IMG/VR virus record: IMGVR_UViG_3300043427_000965
Coordinates: 1-43,850 of that record
Direction: 5' to 3' (one strand)
Source: a virus
Length of the DNA: 43,850 bases
Shown: piece after piece, positions 19,684 to 24,300 of the stretch
How the letters are laid out: the number at the start of each line of letters is the position of its first letter
How positions within the stretch are numbered: position 1 is the stretch's first letter
Made by a program: the position numbers and the translations under genes
The notes under the pieces: generated by a model
Told to the model about the DNA's origin: nothing
What the model saw: only the letters and a program-made list of their open reading frames with translations
Database searches by the model: none

Positions 19684-19899
19684 ATGGGCCGCACAGTATA
19701 TAAATTTCGTGACGACGACGAAGAAGATAGACACCGCCGTAAAAGTAAATCGCCAAAACATTCGAGAAATATCCCTGGCAAGGGTATGCGTGTTATAAAT
19801 AGTTGGTCAGAGGAAGACGACATCGAACTCGAATTCGAAGAAGATGTCAAAACCAAAGACGAATATCTCGATAACACACCGTTTATACATCGTAAATAA
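19684..19899 (+). CDS. Small charged protein between gp59 and gp32
   Basis: A 71-residue protein starting MGRTVYKFRDDDEEDRHRRK, with a basic middle and an acidic C-terminal part (EEDDIELEFEEDVKTKDEYLD). Similar short MGRTVYK-type proteins precede gp32 in T4-like cyanophages, as I recall. It is probably disordered. A TATAAATA late-type element lies inside the gene at 19794-19801. Function unknown. Confidence 0.55.
   Translation: MGRTVYKFRDDDEEDRHRRKSKSPKHSRNIPGKGMRVINSWSEEDDIELEFEEDVKTKDEYLDNTPFIHRK
19794..19801 (+). promoter_or_regulatory. Possible late promoter upstream of gp32
   Basis: An exact TATAAATA inside the small gene, 108 bp before the gp32 ATG. T4 gene 32 is also served by a late promoter. 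The position inside a coding region lowers confidence. Confidence 0.4.
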
Positions 19900-19909
19900 A
19901 GGAAAATAT

Positions 19910-20821
19910 ATGGACATTACTACACTCCGCAAGATGCGTTCTTCAAACTTCGCTAAGATCAGCACCGAGTTCGAGAAGATCGCTAATCCCCAGTCAGACT
20001 CTAAGTCTTATCAAGACGACCGCTTTTGGAAACTAGAACCAGATAAAGCCGGTAACGCTTCAGCGACTATTCGCTTCCTTCCTAATCCCGATCCAAACGA
20101 GCTCCCTTGGGTTAGAGTATTCAATCACGGCTTCCAAGGTCCTACTGGCAAATGGTATATTGAGAATTCTCGTACTACGATCGGCGAAGCTGATCCAGTT
20201 GGTGAGTTGAACGCTCGTCTCTGGAATTCTGGTATCGAAGCTGATAAAGAAGTAGCCCGCAAACAGAAGCGTCGGTTGACCTACATCGCCAACGTGATGA
20301 TCGTCTCAGATCCTAAGCATCCTGAGAACGAAGGTCAAGTTCGCCTGTTTAAGTTTGGTAAGAAGATCTTCGACAAGATCATGGACAAAGCTCGTCCAAC
20401 GTTTGAGGATGAGACACCCGTCAACGTCTTCGATCTATGGGAAGGTGCAGACTTCAAGCTTCGTCAGCGCAAGGTCGAGGGTTATCCTAACTACGATCAG
20501 TCGACGTTCATGGAACCAGCAGCTGTAACTGAGAGCGAAGAAGATCTGTTGAAGCTCATGAATAAAGTTCATGACCTCAAAGAGTTCGTCGATCCTAAGA
20601 ACTTCAAGTCGTACGAAGAGCTATCACGTAAACTCGAGTCAGTATTGAATGGATCTTCAGCTCCAGTTCAGACCGCCGAGTCGATGAGTGAAGAGCAAGA
20701 CGCACCTGAAGTTAAGAAGGTCGTAAAGCCAGCTACTAAGAAAGTCGCTGTGACTGCTCCTGATGAAGATGAGGATGCAGAAGCGATGAGTTTCTTTAAG
20801 AAGATCGCTATGGAAGAGTGA
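19910..20821 (+). CDS. 32: gp32 single-stranded DNA-binding protein
   Basis: A 303-residue gp32 homologue. The N-terminal basic 'B' domain (MDITTLRKMRSSNFAKISTEF) drives cooperativity. The core has RFWKLEPDKAGNASATIRFLPNP, WYIENSRTTIGEADPVGELN and NVMIVSDPKHPENEGQVRLFKFGKKI. The acidic C-tail is preceded by an Ala/Lys/Pro-rich linker. ATG 19910 is chosen for the conserved start and the AAAGGAAA RBS; an upstream in-frame ATG at 19844 lies within the previous gene. The zinc-binding His/Cys set of T4 gp32 is missing: the protein has no cysteine. Confidence 0.9.
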   Translation: MDITTLRKMRSSNFAKISTEFEKIANPQSDSKSYQDDRFWKLEPDKAGNASATIRFLPNPDPNELPWVRVFNHGFQGPTGKWYIENSRTTIGEADPVGELNARLWNSGIEADKEVARKQKRRLTYIANVMIVSDPKHPENEGQVRLFKFGKKIFDKIMDKARPTFEDETPVNVFDLWEGADFKLRQRKVEGYPNYDQSTFMEPAAVTESEEDLLKLMNKVHDLKEFVDPKNFKSYEELSRKLESVLNGSSAPVQTAESMSEEQDAPEVKKVVKPATKKVAVTAPDEDEDAEAMSFFKKIAMEE

Positions 20822-20845: not shown

Positions 20846-20871
20846 AGGGAGGCGAAAGCCTCCCTTTTTTT
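20846..20871 (+). terminator. Rho-independent terminator after gp32
   Basis: Stem AGGGAGGC / GCCTCCCT with a GAAA tetraloop, followed by a T7 run. A second hairpin (ATCCAC / GTGGAT, 20821-20838) lies just before it. The terminator separates the converging gp32 and tape-measure genes and ends at the stop codon of the latter. Confidence 0.9.
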
Positions 20872-22990
20872 ATGGCCCGATATAAGATGTGTTTGATATG
20901 TAATCAATAAACCCGCCGTCGTTGTTGCGAACAGGAGCTGGCATAGTAATATTCTGTCTATTCGTTGTGTTGACATTAGTTGGAGCGTTTACTATAACTG
21001 GTGCCGGCTGCGCAGTTGTCATAGAAGCTTGTGCGTTAGCTGCAGAACGATTATATATTTCAGTCCCACTGGTGACCTGAGGCTTGCTCGCTGCCAGTAG
21101 ATCGGTTGCTTTAGCATAGCCGACGTCGACTTTTCTCTTATCCCAGAATCCTAACTGCTGATATGCCTCATCTTCTTTAACGATCTCAGCAATTGCTGCA
21201 GTATCCTTTCCTTCTCTAGCAGCTGACTTAATCTGACGAAAAGCTCTAGCTGATATATCTTTTACACCTTCTTCACCCGCTACACTACCACCTAATATAG
21301 CTTTTCCTGTCTTAGGATCGAACTGAGCGAAAGCATCTTGTATGTCTACTTTATTGTTATCTTGTCTTTCAGTATTGACTAGAACTCGTGTAGATTCTGC
21401 ATCTGTTGAAACTATATTCTGTTGCATCGAGCTTCTAGTATTTCCTTCGCTATCTTGTGTTGTCTTCAATTGTGTTTCACTAGATATTTTTGTTACGTCT
21501 GGTTCAGGCCTAAATGGATAGAACGGACCAATGCTGACTTTCTTCTTTATAATTGGTATAGTAAAAGAAATCTCAGGTATACCAAAATCTTCTAAGAAAG
21601 ATATGACATCGTTCTTCATCTTAATAAAGAATTGTTTTACTGGTTCGAATACTTTTGCTAGTGGTTTTAATACGTATTCGTCTAGTAGACCGTAAAGTTG
21701 AGTTGCTATATTCGTTAATGGTTCTACGATGTAGATATCAAATAGATCACCCATCCAACTGAAGAATTCTGTGACTGGGGTTATAATGTATTCATCTACA
21801 GCTTTACCCATCCATGTAACAGCACTCTTTAAAGTCTCAGCATCTATTAGGCCGAAGCTTAAGAATTCTATAATTCCCCCTAATCCGTCTAAAAGAACAT
21901 CTATAAAATCGCCACCGTCGAAAAAAGTATTAAATGCATCGATGATACCATTGACTATAGCGCCAACTATCATCGCAGGTATGAATACTTTCGTGAATAT
22001 CTTAAGTAAATTCTTAGGATTAAACAAGAACTTTAAAGCTGCCATGACTCCTTCTTTTAACCAGCCTAGAGCTTTCTCTAATATTCCATCTAAGAATCCA
22101 CCTACTTTTTTCTTTGGTTCTTCTTTCTGTTCTTCTTCTCCGCCCCCAGCACCTCGAGTATTAGCTTCTATCTTACTTAATAGATCTATAACCTGCGCCT
22201 GTTGACGCTGCGATTCTAGAGCTGCTTCATCCGAGAAGCTATCTGCCGATACTGTCTTTGCACCACCATCTTCTGTAACTTTTGCTGTTCTAACAGAAGA
22301 CTTAGATTCTTGTTCTTTGACCTGTCTAATTCTAGGATCAACCTTTTCCATCTGCTCAGCTAGAGTGCCACGCATTTGAAATAAACCAGCTTTCTTTATC
22401 TGATCTTCTCTGTATCCTGCTTTTTCTAGTCTGGAGATTTCGCCCTCATTAGCTCGCATGTCTCTACGAAGTCTCTGCTGCTCGTCAAATTGAGCTCCAA
22501 ATGTTCTTCTTGCAGTGGCTTTCTTTTCTTCGTCTGTAGCACCCTTAGCTATCTTATAGTAGTTAGGATCTGTCTTCATTCTATCTTCGACATACTGCAT
22601 GCGTGCAGCGCGTCGATTGACAGCTGTTGAGACTATACCACCCGACTCAGCGTCGACTATACCTGTCTTATTTAAGAATCCCTTTAGAGTAAAGAAATCC
22701 TTAAATCCTTTCTTAAAGTCTCCTATACGTTCGCCAATAGTCTTGAATTGTTCTAAAGCCATAGACTTATCTGTGATCTGTCCCGCGCGCTCAGGAGACA
22801 TCTTCTCGATAGCTTTGGTCTGCTTCTTAACTTCTTTGAACAGTTGAATCACATTAGAGTTGAGTTGCTCATCGGCCTTCTCAACTTTTTGATGATGATT
22901 CTGAGCCGATAGCTGTAACAGTCTATCCTGCTTGGTGAGATCTGTTAGTTCTGCCAGTTGCTTTTCTTGCTTTTCTAAAGCGTTTTTCAT
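20870..22990 (-). CDS. Tail tape-measure protein (gp29-like)
   Basis: A 706-residue protein. The N-terminal 60 residues form a coiled coil (MKNALEKQEKQLAELTDLTK), followed by long charged helices. The central part is hydrophobic with probable membrane-type helices (IFTKVFIPAMIVGAIVNGII, then FIDVLLDGLGGIIEFLSFGL). The C-terminal 50 residues are Pro/Asn/Thr-rich (PTNVNTTNRQNITMPAPVRN), a tail found on T4-like phage tape measures. T4 gp29 is 590 residues. It follows the gp26 chaperone-like genes, the usual place of a tape measure. Start overlaps the frameshift ORF stop (ATGA). Confidence 0.7.
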   Translation of the reverse strand: MKNALEKQEKQLAELTDLTKQDRLLQLSAQNHHQKVEKADEQLNSNVIQLFKEVKKQTKAIEKMSPERAGQITDKSMALEQFKTIGERIGDFKKGFKDFFTLKGFLNKTGIVDAESGGIVSTAVNRRAARMQYVEDRMKTDPNYYKIAKGATDEEKKATARRTFGAQFDEQQRLRRDMRANEGEISRLEKAGYREDQIKKAGLFQMRGTLAEQMEKVDPRIRQVKEQESKSSVRTAKVTEDGGAKTVSADSFSDEAALESQRQQAQVIDLLSKIEANTRGAGGGEEEQKEEPKKKVGGFLDGILEKALGWLKEGVMAALKFLFNPKNLLKIFTKVFIPAMIVGAIVNGIIDAFNTFFDGGDFIDVLLDGLGGIIEFLSFGLIDAETLKSAVTWMGKAVDEYIITPVTEFFSWMGDLFDIYIVEPLTNIATQLYGLLDEYVLKPLAKVFEPVKQFFIKMKNDVISFLEDFGIPEISFTIPIIKKKVSIGPFYPFRPEPDVTKISSETQLKTTQDSEGNTRSSMQQNIVSTDAESTRVLVNTERQDNNKVDIQDAFAQFDPKTGKAILGGSVAGEEGVKDISARAFRQIKSAAREGKDTAAIAEIVKEDEAYQQLGFWDKRKVDVGYAKATDLLAASKPQVTSGTEIYNRSAANAQASMTTAQPAPVIVNAPTNVNTTNRQNITMPAPVRNNDGGFIDYISNTSYIGP

Positions 22991-23172
22991 ATCTTGTTTC
23001 TCTCTATTCTCTGTTTTTCTTCTTCCAGATATTGAATCAACATGGCAACGTAAATCTCTCGCTCAAATGGTATTAGGTTCTCAATGTCTGCTAGACTATA
23101 CTTATGGTACTGCATCAGAGCGAAGTTATTCTTGTAATAGTTAGCGAGACTTTCATGACAAAGATTAATTAG
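22987..23172 (-). CDS. -1 frame extension of gp26 (tail-chaperone-like C-terminal part)
   Basis: An open frame of 61 codons reading LINLCHESLANYYKNNFALM, QYHKYSLADIENLIPFEREI, YVAMLIQYLEEEKQRIERNK and I. It has no ATG before codon 20 and no RBS. The N-terminal YYKNNFALM part before the first Met looks conserved with small proteins I remember from T4-like phages, so it should be translated. The frame is -1 to gp26 and continues from its slippery stop. It resembles the T part of G-GT tail chaperones. Its stop overlaps the tape-measure start. Confidence 0.65.
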   Translation of the reverse strand, partial: LINLCHESLANYYKNNFALMQYHKYSLADIENLIPFEREIYVAMLIQYLEEEKQRIERNKI

Positions 23173-23882
23173 AAAAAATTTTCGATTCCTTGTATGCTGT
23201 GATTATGCATATAGTTACAAACTGGGCAACTAAATTCTATTTTTTTCTCTAACTTAGGCATAGTTTCAAAGAACTGTTGGATCTTCTTAAACTGTGACTG
23301 TGTTAGATTATCTAAGAAAGAAATTAATTCTTCTTTACTCTGTTCTTTAGAAGAATATATCTGATCACCGGCATAGATGTTGTCAATACAAGACGTAATT
23401 ACTTCGAAAACAGCTTCGATACTTTCTTCTTTTACGTTCTTCATTTTGTCAAGCATATCTAAGCTAGGATACTTCATAGTCACACCAACGTCGTCAAAGA
23501 GATCAATACTCTTCTTATGATCTGGATGAAATTCGACTTCTAACTCCGTAAGATTGATTGCGACTTTCATCTTTGCCTTGGGGTCATTGCATTCAAGGCA
23601 GTTGAACATAAGCTCTGATATCTCGCCTACAGATTTAGCTCGAAGCTGGCAGAAGATATATTCTATGTCAAATATAGCTAGATCTTCTACATTTAACTTA
23701 CCAAACGTACAAGACGATATAATGTCTTTGATCGTATTCAGCATCACTGCAGGATCTTCACTCTGCTGAGCGATCAAGAGAGCTTTTTCTTCTTTAACTA
23801 AGAAAGCTCTGTACTTAACTTTTTTCTTTAGTGAAGGCACTTTCAATTCATATGTCGGACTCGACATTACTGGTAAAGCCAT
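23169..23882 (-). CDS. 26: gp26-like baseplate hub assembly protein
   Basis: A 237-residue protein of the T4 gp26 (T4_baseplate) family: MALPVMSSPTYELKVPSLKK, then RAFLVKEEKALLIAQQS, a central FNCLEC and CPVCNYMH cysteine pairs that may bind zinc, and ISFLDNLTQSQFKKIQQFF. The ATG at 23882 has an AAGGAAA RBS; an upstream ATG at 23909 lies inside gp16. Its last codons are GAA AAT TTT TTC TAA, a classical slippery sequence that permits -1 shifting into the next frame. With frameshift the product would be about 298 residues. Confidence 0.75.
   Translation of the reverse strand: MALPVMSSPTYELKVPSLKKKVKYRAFLVKEEKALLIAQQSEDPAVMLNTIKDIISSCTFGKLNVEDLAIFDIEYIFCQLRAKSVGEISELMFNCLECNDPKAKMKVAINLTELEVEFHPDHKKSIDLFDDVGVTMKYPSLDMLDKMKNVKEESIEAVFEVITSCIDNIYAGDQIYSSKEQSKEELISFLDNLTQSQFKKIQQFFETMPKLEKKIEFSCPVCNYMHNHSIQGIENFF
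23172..23181 (-). promoter_or_regulatory. Programmed -1 frameshift site at the end of gp26
   Basis: In gene orientation the bases read A-AAT-TTT-TTC-TAA. Both A_AAT_TTT and T_TTT_TTC match the X_XXY_YYZ heptamer rule for tandem slippage, and a stop codon follows immediately. Slippage joins gp26 to the 61-codon open frame that has no proper start. Confidence 0.65.
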
Positions 23883-23883
23883 G

Positions 23884-24300
23884 TTATTTTTCCTTTCGTA
23901 AATTTTCAAGCATCTTGCTCAACTCATTAGTGCTACCTACGAAGATAGCGTTATTCGTCACGTTGTTTGGCTGTTGTCTAGGAGTTTCTACTATCTGTTT
24001 CTTTCTATGAAGGTCTAGCAATTGGGTGTTTATGTCTGATAAATTCTTCATTAGACCACCCACAACTTCAAAAGCCCGAGGATGTTCTGAGTTTTTTGCC
24101 ACTTCTAAAGCATGATACAATGCATCTTCACCTTGTGCTAATAAATTATGTAGATTGCGTCTAGTCGCATCATAATCATGTTCTAAAGCTTCATTGCTTT
24201 CTAATTTTTCAAGAGACACATGAGCAACAGGTTCCATCTTACTGATGGGCTGAACATCAAAGACTTCGCTTAATTTATCAGTATTCATAATTGTTTCCAT
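23884..24300 (-). CDS. 16: gp16-like terminase small subunit
   Basis: A 138-residue protein with the helical core of T4 gp16: YDATRRNLHNLLAQGEDALY, HALEVAKNSEHPRAFEVVGG and LMKNLSDINTQLLDLHRKK. The PRAFEVVGxxMKxxSDxNxxLLxLH signature is that of T4-type small terminases, which form oligomers that load DNA into the large terminase. The Asn-rich C-terminus is probably flexible. The start overlaps the gp54 stop (TAATG); a second ATG twelve bases downstream is possible. Confidence 0.8.
   Translation of the reverse strand: METIMNTDKLSEVFDVQPISKMEPVAHVSLEKLESNEALEHDYDATRRNLHNLLAQGEDALYHALEVAKNSEHPRAFEVVGGLMKNLSDINTQLLDLHRKKQIVETPRQQPNNVTNNAIFVGSTNELSKMLENLRKEK

Follow-up and report, generated by a model that had tools for sequence, protein, structure and literature searches.

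Two-form tail assembly chaperones in long-tailed phages

Frameshifting of the G-T type is conserved in long-tailed phages with the exception of T4 (Atkins et al. 2016; PMC5009743), and the lambda pair gpG/gpGT (Xu et al. 2004; PMC5009743) consists of a short and a long form, as the locus described here is predicted to do. The slippery heptamer at this locus differs from that of lambda, and the G part is larger (237 aa) and has an extra C-terminal half. In lambda the heptamer is GGGAAAG.

Closer to hand are the tail assembly chaperones (TACs) of T4-like phages, which according to two papers citing it (PMC10885494, PMC12846349) were identified by Vladimirov, Gautam and Davidson 2022 (Virology 566:9-15). 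The same citing papers refer to that study for some T4-like phages having a short TAC gene alongside a long, fused one, and for poly-T slippery sites in TAC genes of T4-like phages. Taking what the citing papers say together with the results on T4 given below, our own reading is that the TAC genes in question are gp26/gp51. The likeness to the present locus then lies in a short form, a long form that has an additional domain at its C-terminus and, as reported in the citing papers, a poly-T slippery site, whereas the difference is that T4 and its close relatives have two genes for the two forms and the locus here has a single gene and a predicted −1 shift. The first-pass annotation held that a chaperone frameshift is little described in T4-like phages, and this has to be given up, the kind being already known via the papers that cite Vladimirov 2022. 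Because T4-like chaperones were, by those accounts, identified there, the present locus adds a new member, an uncultured one, to a kind already known; the statistics from the large sample and the Shine-Dalgarno-like signal set out below serve as supporting detail. A further TAC locus, that of the Vandenendeviridae/Andersonviridae (phage Adele, PMC12846349), has a −1 frameshift, a GTTTTT motif and a T part annotated as a separate hypothetical gene, in phage families that differ from that of the present locus.

The gp26-like locus

The window, meaning the whole stretch of DNA that was analysed, is the 43,850 nucleotides of the virus record IMGVR_UViG_3300043427_000965. On its minus strand, and in the direction of reading, the locus has the following features.

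23884 to 24300, minus strand: small terminase-like gene abutting gp26 on the upstream side (phrog_445, E 3e-38)
23169 to 23882, minus strand: gp26-like gene, putative short chaperone form, 237 aa, 0 frame (PF12322/phrog_150)
23187 to 23191, minus strand: AAGGA, candidate internal Shine-Dalgarno-like stimulator, 8 nt before the heptamer (codon bias in relatives)
23172 to 23178, minus strand: slippery heptamer T_TTT_TTC (T_TTT_TTN in 88/88 relatives; six T in 48/48 clusters)
22987 to 23172, minus strand: −1 frame "T" domain, 61 codons and the stop TGA (phrog_634, C-terminal part of phrog_150; purifying selection)
20870 to 22990, minus strand: tape-measure homologue, 706 aa, with an ATG that overlaps the T-frame stop (ATGA), assigned via an ORF of relative L004

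Further upstream of the small terminase-like gene lie tail-tube-like, DNA end protector and head-closure genes. The gp26 protein (ORF 23882-23169, minus strand, starting MALPVMSS) matches the Pfam family PF12322 T4_baseplate (gp26/gp51) with an E-value of 3e-64 and 217 bits against a curated cut-off of 24.5, and PHROG phrog_150 with an E-value of 5e-69, and it is the only PF12322 copy in the record. Its 3' end reads GAA AAT TTT TTC TAA, with the stop at 23171-23169, and the two overlapping heptamers that had been noticed at this stop, A_AAT_TTT (23181-23175) and T_TTT_TTC (23178-23172), are both present.

After a slip the −1 frame would read LINLCHESLANYYKNNFALMQ...NKI (codons 23172-22990, TGA stop 22989-22987). 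It is open for 61 codons and its TGA overlaps, as ATGA, the ATG at 22990 with which the next ORF starts, both as first described, and so too is the predicted fusion length of 298 aa (237 + 61), with ...ENFFLINLCHESL... spanning the junction. The description of this frame as start-less at first is likewise accurate, the earliest ATG being codon 20, with GTG and TTG equally absent before it. Among the PHROGs the T frame hits phrog_634 (E 4e-26), named "baseplate hub assembly catalyst", as well as the C-terminal end of phrog_150, and in Pfam it has no significant match. GenBank records such as NC_026923 (L118:2501-2656) often leave the T frame without annotation, or else give it as a short gene of its own whose start is a guess, under the name "baseplate hub assembly catalyst" or as a hypothetical protein.

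That the next gene downstream is a tape measure was also proposed at first pass, and the 706-aa ORF does prove to be a tape-measure homologue, linked through relative L004: it has 36% identity over 267 aa to an ORF there which itself matches the tape-measure family phrog_4372 (E 3e-10), while direct family searches of the window ORF in Pfam, PHROGs and NCBIfam gave no significant match. Of the 68 relatives in which a next ORF was found, 65 have its start at −14 to +13 nt relative to the T stop, and several of these next ORFs match tape-measure families. The gp26 gene is then directly upstream of a tape-measure gene, as chaperone genes of the G/GT type are. Convergent with the tape-measure ORF, at 19844-20821 on the plus strand, is a 325-aa ORF that by eye resembles the T4 gp32-type single-stranded DNA binding protein.

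Conservation of the slippery site

A profile search of IMG/VR with the small frame found at least 597 relatives, and 80 of these were taken for analysis; together with those from a gp26 search and three isolates they make a set of 88 non-identical junctions, which fall into 48 clusters (nucleotide identity 70% or less). T frames were located via the T domain or via gp26, and never via the slippery site. In all 88 junctions the T frame is −1 relative to gp26, and an in-frame T_TTT_TTN stands at the junction in 88/88 as against 15 of the 20,522 codons (0.07%) elsewhere in the same gp26 ORFs, a difference which argues that conservation of the slip site is not due to chance, with the proviso that the rows share descent and so the relatives' counts are not independent trials. 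The Z base is C in 44, T in 36 and A in 8. Six T are invariant in 48/48 clusters, often with a seventh or eighth T besides, and the invariant run includes the third base of the preceding codon, where codon use predicts T in about 63%. Since the zero-frame residue after TTT varies between Phe and Leu across the relatives, what is conserved is the base sequence rather than the amino acid. What is found at the junction is thus a conserved in-frame X_XXY_YYZ heptamer, the form expected of a −1 programmed ribosomal frameshift site. Alignment of relatives, which the first-pass annotation had proposed as a check, upholds T_TTT_TTN (88/88) but not the overlapping A_AAT_TTT, which was rejected as a slip site on account of a preceding codon that varies among relatives (AGT, AAT, GAT, TCT, GGT, GCT).

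Upstream of the heptamer there are signs of a second signal. At 14 nt upstream, Glu is encoded by GAG in 18/26 cases compared with 152/577 elsewhere (Fisher 1e-5), and the Gly after it is encoded by GGA/GGG in 29/47 compared with 110/347 elsewhere (8e-5), and these biased Glu-Gly codons yield in the relatives a Shine-Dalgarno-like GAGGR some 9-10 nt before the heptamer. The stimulator of dnaX frameshifting has the same spacing, about 9-10 nt before its heptamer. The GAGGR position is too distant upstream to serve any T-frame start, and the upstream sequence is a candidate frameshift stimulator, a role suggested by its position and codon bias. For a conserved downstream RNA structure the result was negative, RNAalifold on the relatives being empty and the window giving a z of 0.30.

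Runs such as this T run can slip in transcription too, and six invariant T, often extended to seven or eight, are what a fusion made by a polymerase that adds or drops a base, and not by the ribosome, might look like. In many members another base follows after no more than six or seven T, which is short for such slippage, and the kept codon phase (T_TTT_TTN throughout) and the upstream Shine-Dalgarno-like codon bias fit ribosomal slippage better. Transcriptional slippage as the source of the fusion is accordingly very unlikely.

Coding in the start-less stretch

From the heptamer to the conserved FALM motif pN/pS is 0.29 in the −1 frame, 1.74 in frame 0 and 1.21 in frame +1 (735 pairs), that is purifying selection in the −1 frame only, which bears out the earlier remark that the first T-frame codons look conserved. 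The first 10 T-frame codons are without ATG, GTG or TTG in 66/88 (the window and 65 other relatives), and in 18 relatives even CTG and ATH are absent there. In 14 relatives a −1 stop immediately upstream and the gp26 stop immediately downstream confine the shift to 7-10 nt on the T run, an example being TGA TTTTTT TTAA. An ATG within the first 9 T-frame codons occurs in 17/88, nearly always 5 nt or less from the gp26 stop and several times as TAATG, and the slippery heptamer is kept in 17/17 of these relatives.

It is with these 17 relatives that the idea of T as a separate small protein, made by termination-reinitiation or internal initiation, has most to work with, and most GenBank annotations draw it so (gp51, hypothetical protein), with ORFs annotated in P-SSM2, phi-ST2 and F86. 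The lack of starts in 66 of the 88 tells against it, the window included, and the 18 without CTG or ATH all the more, as does the loss of conserved residues under purifying selection that a start at the window's first Met would entail. Relatives with a proper ribosome binding site and ATG on the small frame, which at first pass had been named as the observation to set against a frameshift, were not seen, since by eye an upstream site at normal spacing is present in 0/17 of the relatives with an early ATG. A separate T would also leave the invariant T run unexplained, and in T4 and relatives the T part is fused to the G part. A separately made T is therefore very unlikely as the general explanation; in some relatives a free T peptide could be made by reinitiation, given the 17/88 that carry an early ATG mostly near the gp26 stop.

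An exception in the Ackermannviridae and Vibrio phage D509

The Ackermannviridae (Bue1, May, STML-13-1 and 18 IMG/VR contigs) and Vibrio phage D509 also have a single gp26 with T in −1 (gp26 3' ends of L108, L109, L110, L129-L146 and L105), and from their junctions the T_TTT_TTN heptamer is absent. The Ackermannviridae junction reads GAR/CAG ATT TTC ATY TAA T and that of D509 TCA CTT TTC AAG TAATG. The Ackermannviridae T frame is under purifying selection, with pN/pS of 0.16 in −1 as against 1.57 in frame 0, and in the tree they and D509 are one branch (100/99). A search of IMG/VR for relatives of Vibrio D509 found none. A long form made here via an undescribed recoding signal around ATT TTC ATT TAA T, without a canonical heptamer and mostly without a usable start, is a tentative proposal to which we give somewhat less than even odds. 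Quite how such a signal would act is a matter of guesses, among them slippage in the P site on U_UUC and a restart of translation at an overlapping ATG/ATT/ATA.

Fold of gp26

The predicted model of gp26 (pLDDT 91) has as its top four PDB matches 3fgx (Z 7.7), 2ob9 (7.3), 3klu (7.0) and 5ir0 (5.5), with the next, an unrelated chain, at 2.5. Of these 2ob9 is the HK97 tail assembly chaperone (gp13) and 3klu is YqbN. The N-terminal domain thus appears to have the TAC fold of the G/GT type, by Z-scores of 5.5-7.7 versus 2.5, and because these are middling the match is supportive and not proof. With Foldseek alone, 2ob9 ranked first by probability (0.47) at a non-significant E-value, and by sequence gp26 has no detectable similarity to the solved structures. 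The structural matches are confined to the N-terminal ~95 residues, and so HK97 gp13 and YqbN are like gp26 in the fold of that part, whereas sequence similarity is undetectable and gp26 has about 140 additional residues. In a gp51-type model the T part forms the C-terminal helices (196-248), and a second look with this model against the PDB returned no chaperone.

The remaining match, 5ir0, is ORF19 of a Vibrio cholerae PICI-like element, and the chaperone fold it has in common with gp26 hints that this satellite may carry a tail-chaperone-like protein.

T4 gp26 and gp51 as the two-gene arrangement

In T4, gp26 is PF12322 alone (208 aa) and gp51 is PF12322 (residues 1-201) followed in one reading frame by the same C-terminal extension as that of the T frame. 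When a profile is built from IMG/VR T frames only, it picks up the C-terminal part of gp51 in three phages, namely T4 (E 1e-5), Aeromonas phage 25 (2e-11) and FL15 (4e-8). Whole-record searches place T in −1 in 14/14 complete phage genomes with one PF12322 copy, and in the five genomes with two copies (T4, Aeromonas 25, Acj61, RB43, FL15) one copy has T in frame and one is without it. The profile matches, the copy numbers and the in-frame gp51 fusion together identify T4 gp26/gp51 as the two-gene counterpart of the frameshifting gene; on sequence comparison T4 gp26 and gp51 are the short and the long chaperone form split over two genes. For gp51 it is reported that the protein is needed for assembly and absent from the particle (PMC3004832). 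Chaperones of the G/GT type are expected to be missing from the virion, to bind both the tape measure and the tube protein, and to have their long form at a few percent.

In the tree a 98/96 branch separates the two copies of T4-type phages from every single-copy gene, a split consistent with a single PF12322 duplication in the T4 lineage; the tree has no known root, and RB43 gp26 is a long branch of unsure placement in it. As to their layout, T4 gene 26 and gene 51 (L022:4803-6229) are divergent neighbours, paralogues that are both PF12322, and in RB43 (L113) both PF12322 copies are on the same strand.

With T4 gp51 a single open frame across both parts, one might ask whether the window holds a pseudogene or a sequencing error, one former ORF that an indel has split. 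Yet 88 non-identical sequences share both the −1 relation and the heptamer and show selection in each of the two frames, complete isolate genomes carry the same arrangement, the cyanobacterial phages S-SM2 and P-SSM2 have it too, and no close relative of the window was seen with a single uninterrupted frame, all of which makes a broken ORF scarcely conceivable.

A probable frameshifted chaperone and what it would mean

Overall the gp26 gene most probably specifies two forms of a tail assembly chaperone, G-like and GT-like, the second by −1 ribosomal frameshifting (probability about 0.93), a reading that follows from the slip site, the selection in −1, the gene order, the chaperone fold and the in-frame GT paralogue of T4. 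Weighing against it are the negative result for downstream RNA structure, the early ATG in 17/88, the heptamer-less junctions of the Ackermannviridae and D509, the middling fold match and the gp51-type model that returned no chaperone. A short and a long form, by frameshift or from two genes, are as expected of the G/GT type and are found here on comparative evidence. The two leading claims of the first-pass annotation have thereby gained support: sequence comparison, selection and the fold together speak for a −1 frameshift joining gp26 to the start-less frame before the tape measure, and for gp26 as a G-like chaperone.

We infer slipping in vivo, the slip rate and the binding partners, and the scheme would run as follows. 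Most ribosomes would end at TAA and give the 237-aa short form (G-like). A minority would move one base backwards on U_UUU_UUC, where tRNA-Phe would exchange its pairing with UUU UUC for one with UUU UUU. Translation by these ribosomes would go on in the −1 frame and give a long form of 298 aa (GT-like), in which T forms a helical domain at the C-terminus. If the parts act as in lambda, G would cover the product of the neighbouring tape-measure gene and T would bring in subunits of the tail tube, with neither remaining in the completed tail.

For annotation the consequence is that the pair "baseplate hub subunit" and "hub assembly catalyst" or hypothetical protein would become one chaperone gene with two products, a correction that would apply to hundreds of marine T4-like phages. 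It would also explain T4 gp26 and gp51, which as two genes would correspond to the short and the long chaperone form respectively.
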